Positions 55,281 to 59,383 of a DNA stretch of 64,000 bases are shown in pieces. A program made the translations under genes and the position numbers. Numbering within the stretch: position 1 is the stretch's first letter; each line of letters starts with the position of its first letter. The notes under the pieces are model-generated. The model saw only the letters and a list, made by a program, of their open reading frames with translations, did not search any database and was not told the DNA's origin. The stretch spans positions 1-64,000 of the forward strand of contig JAJYCD010000007.1 in assembly GCA_021778635.1 (NCBI GenBank), in the 5' to 3' direction. The stretch comes from Actinomycetes bacterium (GTDB taxonomy: Bacteria > Actinomycetota > Actinomycetes > Actinomycetales > Cellulomonadaceae).

Positions 55281-55393
55281 CTCCGGGCGCGCGGCGGTCG
55301 TGCCGCCCGGACCGCCGCCGATCCGGACGGCGACGACGTCCGGGGCGCCGTCCCCCACCGCTCGTGTCGGTCGGACCTGGGAGGATCGGGGGG

Positions 55394-57433
55394 ATGTCAA
55401 CCGACGACCTGCTCGATGCCCTCGACCCCGACCAGCGCGAGGTGGCCCGCGCCCTGACGGGCCCCGTCTGCGTGCTCGCGGGCGCGGGCACCGGGAAGAC
55501 GCGGGCGATCACCCACCGCATCGCGTACGGCGTGCGGACAGGCGTCTACCGTCCGTCGGCCGTGCTCGCGGTGACCTTCACCGCACGGGCCGCGGGTGAG
55601 ATGCGGACGCGTCTGCGTGACCTCGGGGTGGGCGGCGTGCAGGCGCGGACCTTCCACGCCGCGGCGCTGCGTCAGCTCGGGTTCTTCTGGCCGAAGGTGA
55701 TCGGCGGCGCACCGCCCCGGATCCTCGAGCACAAGGCGACCGTGATCGCGGAGGCGGCGGGTCGCCTCGGGCTGGACGTGGACCGGGTCGCCGTGCGCGA
55801 CCTCGCATCGGAGGTCGAGTGGTCGAAGGTCAGCCTGGTGACCGCGGACGACTACGTCCGGGCGACCGCGGCGATCGACCGCCCGGCACCGTCCGGCTAC
55901 GACCATCACGCGGTCGCGCGTCTGATCACGACGTACGAGGACGTCAAGACCGAGCGTGGCGTGATCGACTTCGAGGACGTCCTGCTCATGCTCGGTGACA
56001 TGCTCCACACCCGTCACGACGTGGCCGAGCAGGTCCGCACGCAGTACCGGCACTTCGTGGTGGACGAGTACCAGGACGTGTCGCCGCTCCAGCAGTTCCT
56101 GCTGGACCAGTGGCTCGGCGGCCGCCAGGAGCTGTGCGTCGTCGGGGACCCGAGCCAGACGATCTACTCCTTCACGGGCGCGACCCCCCACCACCTCCTG
56201 ACGTTCCGGTCGCAGCACCCGACCGCCCAGGTGATCCGGCTCGTCCGGGACTACCGATCGACACCGCAGGTCGTCTCGCTGGCCAACCGGCTGCTCGCCC
56301 GGCGCGACGCCCGCGGCAGGGGAACGGCTCCGCTCGAGCTCGTGGCCCAGCGGCCGGACGGTCCGCCGATCGGGTTCACGGTCTACGACGACGACGACGT
56401 CGAGGCGGCCGGCGTGGCGCAGCGGGTCGCGCGTCTCGTGGCCGCCGGCACGCGACCGAGCGAGATCGCGGTGCTGTACCGCACCAACGCGCAGTCGGAG
56501 GCCTTCGAGCAGGCCCTGGCCGCGGCCGGCATCGGCTACCTCGTCCGTGGCGGAGAGCGGTTCTTCGCGCGGCGCGAGGTCCGTGACGCGATCGTGCTCC
56601 TCCGGGGCGCCGGCCGCGCCGCCGATGCCGAGACGCCGATGGTCGAGACGGTCCGCGACGTCCTGCTCTCGGCCGGGTGGTCGCCCGAGCCGCCGGCGTC
56701 CCGCGGAGCGGTCCGTGAACGGTGGGAGTCGATGCAGGCGCTGGTCGGTCTCGCCGACGACCTCGCGACCCGGTTCCAGGCCTCCTACGCCGACTTCCTC
56801 GCCGAGCTCGACGAGCGCGCCTCGGCGCAGCACGCCCCGACGGTCGAGGGCGTGACGCTCGCGTCGTTGCACGCCGCCAAGGGGCTCGAGTGGGACGCGG
56901 TGTTCCTCGCAGGCCTGAGCGAGGGGCTGATGCCGATCTCGCTCGCCGAGACCGACGCGGCGATCGCCGAGGAGCGGCGCCTGCTGTACGTCGGTATCAC
57001 CAGAGCGCGTGAGCACCTGGAGCTCTCGTTCTCCCGGGCTCGAAACCCCGGAGGCCGCGCGACGCGTCGTCGGAGCCGATTCCTCGACGGGCTCTGGCCC
57101 GAGCACACCGCGGCGCCGGCGGGAGGCCGTGGTCGGACGCCACGCGGTGCGCACCTGACCGGGGACTTCGACGCAGGGCTCTACGACCGGCTCGCAGGCT
57201 GGCGGTCGAGCGTCGCGGTCGAGGCCGGCGTCCCGGCGTTCACCGTGCTGGTCGACCGCACCCTGGAGGCCATCGCCGAGCTCCGACCGGGCACGATGCC
57301 CGAGCTCGCGGCGATCAAGGGCATGGGACCCGCCAAGCTCTCGCACTACGGCGAGACGATCCTGGCTCTCGTGTCCACACCCGTCGGCGCGAACGACGGC
57401 TCAGGATCGGCCGCCGCAACACGGGTCAGATAA
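55394..57433 (+). CDS. uvrD2: UvrD2-type superfamily 1 DNA helicase
   Basis: 679 residues. Motif I is AGAGTGKTRAIT, motif II VVDEYQDVSPLQ, motif III GDPSQTIYSF, motif IV region VRDYRSTPQV, motif V LHAAKGLEWD, and motif VI YVGITRAREHL. The C-terminal HRDC domain (about 595-665) is present, with AIKGMGPAKLSHYGE. In mycobacterial UvrD2 a tetracysteine motif joins the helicase to HRDC; here that linker has no cysteines. ATG 55394 follows a G-run; no Shine-Dalgarno is evident. whiB7 lies downstream as in mycobacteria. Confidence 0.93.
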   Translation: MSTDDLLDALDPDQREVARALTGPVCVLAGAGTGKTRAITHRIAYGVRTGVYRPSAVLAVTFTARAAGEMRTRLRDLGVGGVQARTFHAAALRQLGFFWPKVIGGAPPRILEHKATVIAEAAGRLGLDVDRVAVRDLASEVEWSKVSLVTADDYVRATAAIDRPAPSGYDHHAVARLITTYEDVKTERGVIDFEDVLLMLGDMLHTRHDVAEQVRTQYRHFVVDEYQDVSPLQQFLLDQWLGGRQELCVVGDPSQTIYSFTGATPHHLLTFRSQHPTAQVIRLVRDYRSTPQVVSLANRLLARRDARGRGTAPLELVAQRPDGPPIGFTVYDDDDVEAAGVAQRVARLVAAGTRPSEIAVLYRTNAQSEAFEQALAAAGIGYLVRGGERFFARREVRDAIVLLRGAGRAADAETPMVETVRDVLLSAGWSPEPPASRGAVRERWESMQALVGLADDLATRFQASYADFLAELDERASAQHAPTVEGVTLASLHAAKGLEWDAVFLAGLSEGLMPISLAETDAAIAEERRLLYVGITRAREHLELSFSRARNPGGRATRRRSRFLDGLWPEHTAAPAGGRGRTPRGAHLTGDFDAGLYDRLAGWRSSVAVEAGVPAFTVLVDRTLEAIAELRPGTMPELAAIKGMGPAKLSHYGETILALVSTPVGANDGSGSAAATRVR

Positions 57434-57467
57434 TCGGTTGTGCCCGGCGGAGAGGCGAGCCTAAGGT
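57429..57467 (+). promoter_or_regulatory. whiB7 promoter with AT-rich WhiB7 target
   Basis: TTGTGC (57438-57443) and TAAGGT (57462-57467) are spaced 18 bp. The AT-rich AGATAAT (57428-57434) ends exactly 3 bp before the -35. WhiB7 with SigA is known to recognise AT-rich DNA 3 bp upstream of the -35, so this fits autoregulation. Transcription would start near 57474, giving a leader of about 420 nt. Confidence 0.7.
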
Positions 57468-57529
57468 GGTCAACGTCCTCGACCGTGCGGCGTCACGACT
57501 GATGCCCGAGACAGAAGGAGGTGGGTGCA

Positions 57530-57658
57530 TTGAAGACAACCAGGACTGCGGAGATGGACGCGGCGTACTGCGCTGCGATCGTCGTCCCGCGATCCCTCGC
57601 ACCCGCCTCGATGCGGATCCAGGGGATCGCTGCGCCCGCTGCCGGGAGCATCGGATGA
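57530..57658 (+). CDS. whiB7 upstream ORF 1 (42 codons)
   Basis: A TTG start is preceded by AGAAGGAGG, the best ribosome site in the window, at 8 nt spacing. The peptide begins LKTTRTAEMDAAYCAAIVV (initiator Met replacing Leu) and ends at TGA 57656-57658. Its stop overlaps the ATG of ORF 2 as ATGA, so ORF 2 is probably translated by coupled re-initiation. The peptide resembles no protein family I know; a leader-peptide role is inferred. Confidence 0.65.
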   Translation: MKTTRTAEMDAAYCAAIVVPRSLAPASMRIQGIAAPAAGSIG

Positions 57659-57753
57659 CGTTCACCCGCCTTCGCGATGCCGCGTTCCGCGCGGCAGTCC
57701 GCAGCGACGTCCCTTTCTCCGCGACTCCACTCCTCGGGATCATCACGGTCTGA
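57655..57753 (+). CDS. whiB7 upstream ORF 2 (32 codons)
   Basis: Starts at ATG 57655, overlapping the stop of ORF 1, and encodes MTFTRLRDAAFRAAVR and a hydrophobic end LLGIITV. The stop lies in the loop of a small hairpin (GGTCT/AGACC) 18 nt before the terminator. Codons 23-25 carry GACTCCAC (57723-57730), which can pair with part of the terminator, so movement of the ribosome here could decide transcription read-through. A longer in-frame open stretch upstream lacks a ribosome site. Confidence 0.55.
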   Translation: MTFTRLRDAAFRAAVRSDVPFSATPLLGIITV

Positions 57754-57783
57754 CCAGACCCTGATCTCGCCGGCCGTGGAGTC
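57723..57783 (+). promoter_or_regulatory. Candidate antiterminator pairing in the whiB7 leader
   Basis: GACTCCAC (57723-57730) is exactly complementary to GTGGAGTC (57776-57783), which contains most of the left arm of the terminator stem. The two structures exclude each other. Confidence 0.55.
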
Positions 57784-57813
57784 CCTCTCGGGATCCACGG
57801 CCTTCGTCTTTCC
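57772..57813 (+). terminator. Intrinsic terminator (attenuator) in the whiB7 leader
   Basis: GGCCGTGGA (57772-57780) pairs with TCCACGGCC (57794-57802), with an inner TCCC/GGGA stem, one bulged G and a TCTC loop. It is followed by TTCGTCTTTCC, the only T-rich tail seen after a hairpin in this window. It lies about 80 nt before the whiB7 start codon, so it attenuates whiB7 instead of ending uvrD2 only. Confidence 0.85.
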
Positions 57814-57894
57814 TGCTCCGTCCGTGAGCGGTGGACCGCCGACGTGGTGTCCCCACCTCACAGCAGACCTTCGCAAGGACATCAGGAGGACATC

Positions 57895-58254
57895 GTGCGG
57901 CTCACCACGCTGCTCGACACGATGAACCAAGGCGGCTCAGGACCCTGGCCCCCCGACGAGTCATCGACCATCTCCGCCGACGAGGAACGTCGGCAGTTCG
58001 ACCGTGTCATCGCGGACCTCATCCCGTGCCGAGCCGGCGACCCCGAGCTCTGGTTCGCAGAGCAGTCCGCACAGGTCGAGCGGGCCAAGGCGCTGTGCCG
58101 CCAGTGCCCGCTCATGACGGGGTGCCTCGCGGGGGCGATCGAGCGCGCCGAGCCGTGGGGCGTCTGGGGCGGCGAGGTGTTCGTGGACGGTGTCGTCGTC
58201 GCGGTCAAGCGCGGCCGCGGTCGCCCACGCAAGACGCAGTCTCCGGCGGCGTGA
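57895..58254 (+). CDS. whiB7: WhiB7 redox-responsive antibiotic-resistance regulator
   Basis: A 119-residue WhiB-family Fe-S protein that binds SigA and activates intrinsic resistance genes. Cluster cysteines are Cys45, Cys68, Cys71 and Cys77 (IPCRAGD, LCRQCPLMTGC), followed by the G[V/I]WGG turn GVWGGE at 89-94. The AT-hook RGRGRPRK at 106-113 is the hallmark that separates WhiB7 from other WhiB proteins. GTG 57895 has AGGAGG 5 nt upstream. The 3' end overlaps the convergent ThiF-like gene by 50 bp, across the AT-hook codons. Confidence 0.95.
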   Translation: MRLTTLLDTMNQGGSGPWPPDESSTISADEERRQFDRVIADLIPCRAGDPELWFAEQSAQVERAKALCRQCPLMTGCLAGAIERAEPWGVWGGEVFVDGVVVAVKRGRGRPRKTQSPAA

Positions 58255-59383
58255 ACTCGAACGGGGTCATCTCGGACTGCGTGATCTCAGCCGGCGCGAT
58301 CTCAGCCGGCGCGATCTCAGCCGGCGTGATCTCGGAGGGCGCGTCGTCGCGGCGCGGGAGAGGGATCGCCCCGCACCCGCAGTCCGGGTGCACCGACCAC
58401 GACCGGACGCGCGGGACGGCCTCGGGGAGAGACACCTCGAGGCCGGCCCCGCGGACGGTCGGGACGCGGCCGTCCAGGTGTGCCAGGGCCTGAGCTGCGG
58501 CGAGGGACCCGGCCACCGCGGCGAGCGAGCTCTCCTCCGGACCGTGCGGGCGCGTTCTCGCGGCAAGCTGCGCGACGACGACGCCCCAGCGCTCGTCGAC
58601 GTCGGCGCGCCACAGGTCCACGCAGCGCAGGCACGGAGTCGCTCCCGGCACGACCAACGGCCCGACCAGGACGCCCGCCTCCTGGACGACGACGGACAGG
58701 TGGGGGATCCCGATCGCCATCGACAGGCGCGACCGCGCCGGGTCGGCTGCCCCGTGCTCGACGAGGACGAGAAGATCGGGTTCGCTGCGAGCAGGAGCGC
58801 GGGTGCGGACCGTGGCATTCGCGTCGTGCACGATCCGATGGGCTGCCTCGGCACGGGACGAGCCGACGTCGCGCGGGAGATAGCCCCCCACCCCGAGGTC
58901 GGCGCTCGTGACGAGGTCGTCGTCCTGGAGGAGGACCGTGCCGACGCCCGCGGCAGCGAGCACGACGGCGATCTGGAGCCCGAGCCGCCCGAGACCGGCG
59001 ACGCCCACGCTACGGGCGGAGCGTGCGCGCACGTGCGCGCCGCCGTCGCCGTCCTCGAGCACGGCGGACCACGCGCGAGCGTCACCGACCGCGCCGGAGA
59101 GCAGGGTCGCGGAGCCGGCCGAGGACGGACGGGGCGGGATCGGGCACACCACGCGCGCCTCGTCCAGGGTGCGAAGGAGAACCTCGACCCGCTCCGGCGC
59201 GAGGCCGTGGCGCGCGGCGGACGCCCGGAGCGACTCGAGCGTCGCGCCCGGCTCGGCCGCGGTCAGCACGTCGACCTCGACGTCGCTCAGGCCGGAGAGC
59301 CGTACGGCCCATCGCGGGTCGGTCCCGATCTGCACCTCACCGGGTGCGCGCCAGAGGAGATCGAGCCCGGGCCTCAGTCGCAT
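58205..59383 (-). CDS. ThiF/E1-like adenylyltransferase-family protein
   Basis: A 392-residue protein of the E1-like superfamily, whose members adenylate C-termini of ubiquitin-like or ribosomal peptides; TOMM cyclodehydratase partner proteins are relatives. The N-terminal ~90 residues resemble a peptide-recognition region. The Rossmann motif is GVAGLGRLGLQIAVVLA, then LLQDDDLV, and cysteine pairs CLRC and CGC could bind zinc. No substrate peptide, YcaO or sulfur-carrier gene is adjacent, so the substrate is unknown. The tail carries EIAPA repeats. ATG 59383 has AAGGAGG upstream. Confidence 0.75.
   Translation of the reverse strand: MRLRPGLDLLWRAPGEVQIGTDPRWAVRLSGLSDVEVDVLTAAEPGATLESLRASAARHGLAPERVEVLLRTLDEARVVCPIPPRPSSAGSATLLSGAVGDARAWSAVLEDGDGGAHVRARSARSVGVAGLGRLGLQIAVVLAAAGVGTVLLQDDDLVTSADLGVGGYLPRDVGSSRAEAAHRIVHDANATVRTRAPARSEPDLLVLVEHGAADPARSRLSMAIGIPHLSVVVQEAGVLVGPLVVPGATPCLRCVDLWRADVDERWGVVVAQLAARTRPHGPEESSLAAVAGSLAAAQALAHLDGRVPTVRGAGLEVSLPEAVPRVRSWSVHPDCGCGAIPLPRRDDAPSEITPAEIAPAEIAPAEITQSEMTPFEFTPPETASCVGDRGRA
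58281..58336. repeat. 15-bp repeats in the C-terminal tail of the ThiF-like gene
   Basis: Three to four 15-bp units related to GATCTCAGCCGGCGC encode EITPA/EIAPA units on the minus strand. They lengthen the tail that overlaps whiB7. Confidence 0.85.

Follow-up and report, generated by a model that had tools for sequence, protein, structure and literature searches.

A probable transcription attenuator of whiB7 with a split upstream open reading frame in a member of the Cellulomonadaceae

The window, i.e. the whole stretch of 64,000 nt that was analyzed, contains a gene which is whiB7, as identified by its Pfam domain PF02467, the AT-hook RGRGRPRK and its orthologs. Two further genomes of the genus, G001 and G002, were available besides that of the window (G000) and encode WhiB7 orthologs of 97% and 90% identity; G002 is the closest congener by WhiB7. 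With a cut-off of E ≤ 1e-40, an ortholog was present in 195 of the 222 genomes examined in the family. Directly upstream lies the gene of a UvrD-like helicase with an HRDC domain (55364-57433), whose stop codon is located about 5 nt before the -35 box of whiB7. A gene for a ThiF-domain protein (PF00899; 58205-59713, minus strand) is convergent with whiB7 and overlaps its 3' end. This protein has a weak match to TIGR03882 (TOMM leader-binding) below the cut-off, and its C-terminus bears short repeats (AEIAPAEIAPAEI...). The region between the helicase gene and whiB7 forms the leader (Table 1). A search of Rfam 15 gave no covariance-model match for the leader at E up to 5; the only hit was on the other strand (58213-58265) and under its gathering score.

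Table 1. Features of the whiB7 leader in the window. L086 and L085 are the leaders of the congeners G001 and G002, respectively.
Feature	Position	Strand	Remarks
Promoter (putative)	57430-57467	+	AT-rich flank ATAAT 57430-57434; -35 TTGTGC 57438-57443; 18-nt spacer; -10 TAAGGT 57462-57467
Shine-Dalgarno sequence of ORF1, AGAAGGAGGTG	57513-57523	+	AAGGAGGTG unique in the window; intact in L085 and L086
ORF1 (5' part of uORF)	57530-57658	+	TTG start 57530; TGA 57656-57658; 42 codons; 6 nt after AGAAGGAGGTG
Weak SD-like GGGAG for ORF2	57644-57648	+	6 nt before the ORF2 ATG; same in L086
ORF2 (3' part of uORF)	57655-57753	+	ATG 57655, overlapping ORF1 as ATGA; TGA 57751-57753; 32 codons
Antiterminator segment P, GACTCCAC	57723-57730	+	core GACTCC pairs with terminator arm, family-wide
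Hairpin H2	57735-57769	+	ORF2 stop codon at tip, between P and P'; predicted by folding
P', GTGGAGTC	57776-57783	+	common to antiterminator and terminator left arm
Intrinsic terminator	57772-57813	+	stem 57772-57802; tail TTCGTCTTTCC
Shine-Dalgarno sequence of whiB7, AGGAGG	57884-57889	+	from sequence; conserved
whiB7	57895-58254	+	GTG start; 119 aa; CxxC motif, GVWGG, AT-hook RGRGRPRK; Pfam PF02467, E 1.6e-15

The original prediction for this region, made without any relatives at hand, had described a Shine-Dalgarno (SD) sequence, a TTG-initiated ORF1, an ATGA-coupled ORF2 and a terminator following the second stop codon, and all of these are found where they had been placed. It had also named the SD of ORF1 the strongest ribosome site of the window, which agrees with the single occurrence of AAGGAGGTG in 64 kb, both strands counted, 6 nt before the TTG. 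The terminator stem, beginning 18 nt after the stop codon of ORF2, has a calculated folding energy of -25.9 kcal/mol (z = -5.5); the terminator itself is thus confirmed, but its tail, previously taken for a real T-rich one, is only moderately T-rich, the U-tract being broken by C and G. Judging from the promoter motif, transcription should start at about 57474, i.e. upstream of 57813 and not downstream of it, where a start would contradict attenuation. Simple promoter and terminator scans of the region gave no match, probably due to the bulged stem and the non-consensus promoter.

For comparison, 182 leaders (119 of the family and 63 class-wide) were used. They come from 80 named loci, additional genomes within the family and members of about 30 other families in the same class. 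The promoter motif TTG-N-TANNNT is kept in 99 of the 119 family leaders, typically as TAATTCGGTTGT...CTAGGGT. A terminator of the GGCCGCGGAGTCC...GGAYCCGCGGCC type was present in 119 of 124 distinct family leaders, its hairpin being of the GGCCGCGG/CCGCGGCC type. Outside the family, most leaders of the approximately 30 further families have the same hairpin, usually as AGGCCGCGGAACCC...GGGATCCGCGGCCT. The terminator motif GGCC[GA][CT]GG[AT] is missing at the expected place in five family-level leaders (L056, L060, L071, L072 and L074); three of these are from Georgenia and have a visible GGACCGCG...CGCGGTCC hairpin in its stead.

The window's leader carries the marks of a whiB7/wblC attenuation leader: the downstream gene is a whiB7 ortholog, an own promoter with an AT-rich -35 flank is recognizable by its sequence motif 5' of the leader, a uORF with an SD (ORF1 with AAGGAGGTG) precedes the terminator, an intrinsic terminator stands before whiB7, and uORF sequence can pair with a terminator arm to give an antiterminator. 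A uORF ending close to the terminator is provided by ORF2 only (stop at -18), the stop of ORF1 being at -113. The one departure is that two ORFs replace the single uORF, which is usual in such leaders without defining them.

The segment GACTCCAC within ORF2 is exactly complementary to GTGGAGTC of the terminator's left arm, as had been predicted. In the window sequence alone, this pairing is weak evidence and not significant, since an 8-nt match to the left arm arises in 7.5% of dinucleotide shuffles; the comparison with the relatives makes it secure. In most leaders, GACTCC(G/A)C is found about 30-55 nt upstream of the terminator stem, whose left arm it complements. This segment, P, was identified from its sequence profile alone, independently of the arm. 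Across the 119 family leaders, the six positions of the P core are paired in 92-100% per position, and the whole P 9-mer is paired in 85%, compared to 32-44% when slid by 1-3 bases. In the genus of the window, the usual GACTCCGC/GCGGAGTC is changed to GACTCCAC/GTGGAGTC, with A-T on both sides instead of the G-C pair, and the matched change extends to the right arm of the terminator (CCACGGCC in place of CCGCGGCC). Further compensated versions of P/P' are GATTC/GAATC (L104), GGTTCC/GGAACC (L054) and GACTCCGT/ACGGAGTC (L146) as well as another matched change in L023; class-wide, GGGGTCC/GGACCCC and GGGTGCC/GGCACCC were found. When arms were permuted between loci class-wide, the mean run of pairing with P was 5.52 (sd 0.10; maximum 5.76 in 200 permutations), compared to 6.13 for the own arm. 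The pairing rule is not absolute, since the consensus arm is a better fit than the own arm in 7 of 17 leaders with variant arms. The attenuation reading of the original prediction and the role assigned there to GACTCCAC are supported by this conservation and covariation. Its view that the pairing is new does not hold: P:P' pairing is general across the family and beyond, and an antiterminator of this kind, using overlapping uORF and terminator sequences, is already published (PMC10727445).

A strongly conserved block, CTGGAGTCCACCGGTCTAG, was observed outside the family 20-60 nt before the terminator (L171, L188, L196 and other class-wide leaders). It encodes the uORF end ...W-S-P-P-V-stop, followed by GACCGG. 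For GGAGTCC, the first half of the block, no pairing partner is evident in the terminator of those class-wide leaders that carry it.

Between P and P', a hairpin not noticed in the original prediction (H2) harbors the uORF stop codon and makes up the antiterminator together with the P:P' pairing. The uORF stop is located within a hairpin in 104 of the 119 family leaders, and the P-P' spacers of the family fold better than shuffled versions (mean z = -2.46). For the window, the fold of P, H2 and P' was calculated at -30.9 kcal/mol (z = -3.7). Folding of the nascent RNA, computed for free RNA beginning near the ORF1 start or in the middle of ORF2, gives the antiterminator a probability of 0.9-1.0 in the window until the right arm of the terminator emerges. 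With a ribosome of assumed footprint size on the stop codon of ORF2, the antiterminator cannot form in this calculation. Equilibrium folding is uninformative on switching, as the terminator always prevails if the complete RNA is free; the switching must hence be kinetic, as in other attenuators.

A leader alignment across the Cellulomonadaceae, proposed earlier to look for covariation and for codon-level conservation, yielded the former for the pairing and did not yield the latter for the ORFs. Between the window and L086, 11 codons of ORF1 differ, 9 by nonsynonymous and 2 by synonymous changes, and the three codon positions are hit 3, 5 and 4 times. Both the even distribution and the 9 of 11 nonsynonymous changes rule out peptide-level conservation of ORF1. 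Likewise, each of the three reading frames is used for P in some of the family leaders (71/36/12), which rules out a codon-level role for P. Taken together, conservation applies to the RNA segments and to the sites of ribosome start and stop, but not to the peptide. Such a pattern would fit a general translation sensor rather than a peptide-specific arrest. In addition, a block CTCGCGCCCACC...TTCCAGGGG...GCTGTG within the uORF (57593-57632) is kept at the nucleotide level in the relatives, with strong conservation of third codon positions as well. It may be a further RNA element, conceivably a pause hairpin.

In 117 of the 119 family leaders, a single uORF begins close to the promoter-proximal SD and ends at a stop codon 8-26 nt before the terminator stem. 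Class-wide, one long uORF ending 13-28 nt before the terminator is present almost without exception. Only the window and L086 are split. ORF1 aligns with the N-terminal part of the relatives' single uORF, and ORF2 stops at the same place as that uORF (-18 from the terminator; family median -17). The tandem ORFs, for which novelty had been claimed, are thus a true peculiarity, one that consists in the split of a single ancestral uORF in 2 of 119 family leaders. L086 has ORF1, TGA and ATGA as in the window; a one-base deletion shifts the frame of the ORF2 end, and the stop comes 8 nt earlier. Since G001 is an independent assembly of two contigs with the same TGA/ATGA, a sequencing or assembly error was ruled out as the source of the split. 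A wider set of split uORFs was also considered, because 20 further family leaders initially had no detected uORF. All of them proved to have a single open frame that contains an in-frame start codon, with a less strong SD, and are therefore not split. L085 has a deletion of 119 nt, through which the beginning of ORF1 is fused to the end of ORF2; the result is one uORF of 34 codons with the same stop. This uORF is among the shortest of the family. By parsimony, the uORF would have been split once in the ancestor of the genus and re-fused later in G002. The split might stem from an indel of one base ahead of an ATGACG that was in frame, as it is in L100, but the poor alignment of the region speaks against relying on this origin.

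We consider it very probable that the leader is a ribosome-controlled transcription attenuator of whiB7, in which ORF1 and ORF2 represent a split ancestral uORF acting as one. The sequence and its comparison provide the promoter motif, the strong start site of the uORF, P, H2 with its stop codon and the terminator, in which P' is able to pair with P instead; the switching steps are deduced from these elements and from published work on whiB7/wblC. Ribosomes having finished ORF1 would restart at ORF2 and reach the stop codon beside the terminator, so that the pair behaves as one uORF. In doing so, they would open H2 and bar P from closing onto P', whereupon the terminator would form and transcription would end before whiB7. 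A stall or failed initiation in ORF1, or a stall in ORF2 before approximately codon 19, would leave P free. P, H2 and P' would then fold first as a long antiterminator and RNA polymerase would read into whiB7. The weakest step of this account is the translation of ORF2 by coupling, which is nevertheless likely. It is based on the position of ORF2, the ATGA overlap and the weak SD, with one congener in support. The openness of ORF2 by itself is weak evidence and not significant, a 31-codon open frame being expected there in 95% of shuffles of the window sequence. Most likely, the two coupled ORFs jointly take over the function of the single uORF of the ancestor. Several observations speak against the attenuator as proposed, namely the predominance of the terminator at equilibrium, the broken U-tract, the chance-level openness of ORF2, the different reading frame of the ORF2 3' end in L086 and the lack of peptide-level constraint on ORF1.

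If ORF2 were not translated, P would stay uncovered, the attenuator would be partly broken with raised basal whiB7, and the deletion in G002 would be a repair which rejoins the frames. This is unlikely, even if L085 has lost exactly the frame-separating stretch and returned to one uORF that uses the old stop, and an open frame such as ORF2 is expected by chance. Both G000 and G001, with WhiB7 proteins of about 90% identity, have retained ATGA and GGGAG; P, P' and the terminator are identical in both, where a useless switch should decay, and P and P' have changed in a matched manner in the genus. Less probable still is one uORF read across the junction, either by a -1 frameshift at the overlap or from the ATG at 57502, the start of an 83-codon ORF that shares frame and stop codon with ORF2. 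The junction contains no slippery heptamer, the ATG is not preceded by an SD-like sequence and its frame is altered in L085 by a two-base insertion, whereas ORF1 has the best SD of the window and aligns with the uORFs of the relatives.

That the hairpin only terminates the upstream helicase gene and that the ORFs are due to chance is highly improbable. Open frames come easily in GC-rich DNA, but the promoter motif kept in 99 of 119 leaders comes after the helicase stop codon, and the terminator, P and the uORF stop are conserved class-wide ahead of whiB7. The preferred reading, an attenuator whose uORF is split, can be extended: the step at which ribosomes terminate on ORF1 and reinitiate on ORF2 could itself be a sensor, giving a two-input attenuator in this lineage; this is unlikely. 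In that case, hindered ribosome release or reinitiation, and not only elongation stalls, would uncover P and switch whiB7 on.

A uORF-dependent attenuator of whiB7/wblC is known in Mycobacterium and Streptomyces (Dinan 2014, PMC4128351; Lee 2022, via PMC10727445, PMC11550727, PMC13236596). In the published mechanism, translation of the uORF leads to the terminator and whiB7 is off; stalled or absent translation leads to the antiterminator and whiB7 is on (PMC4128351, PMC11550727, PMC9618640, PMC10727445, PMC13393426). Hence neither the mechanism nor this kind of pairing is new, and the split uORF is the one real peculiarity, new as far as the literature examined shows. The comparative evidence for a covarying antiterminator with a stop-codon hairpin is new within the same limits and may already be described. 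It provides a clean comparative definition of the whiB7 antiterminator, with a pairing that encloses the uORF-stop hairpin in many actinobacterial families and that no Rfam model matched. The genus also offers a natural experiment, with the uORF split in two species and re-fused in a third, on whether the switch needs one unbroken uORF or just the arrival of a ribosome at the right place.

Leaders with two ORFs are known (ermB, are5sc), and none was found in the literature examined as a coupled replacement of the whiB7 uORF. The ermB leader with ermBL and ermBL2 (PMC8274638) likewise has two leader ORFs in different frames with shared sequence before an antibiotic-resistance gene, but it works by translation attenuation without a terminator switch, and ermBL2 overlaps the end of ermBL without restart at the stop. 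The are5sc leader of Streptomyces coelicolor with L1 and L2 (PMC12421871) also belongs to an actinobacterial antibiotic-response gene and combines a predicted terminator/antiterminator with overlapping uORFs. These are tiny, having 3 codons, only L1 was seen translated, and gene and RNA are different. In amino-acid attenuators of the ilvB type (PMC13236596), the ribosome position also chooses between terminator and antiterminator; they contain regulatory codons for the sensed amino acid, whereas none are conserved in the whiB7 leader described here. Closest is the whiB7/wblC attenuator itself, which shares the gene, the promoter placement, the strong-SD uORF, the intrinsic terminator, an antiterminator from uORF and terminator and, as predicted here, the response to ribosome stalling. 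The window's leader differs from it in the exact arm sequence, by matched changes, and in having two ATGA-coupled ORFs in place of the one uORF of the known leaders.
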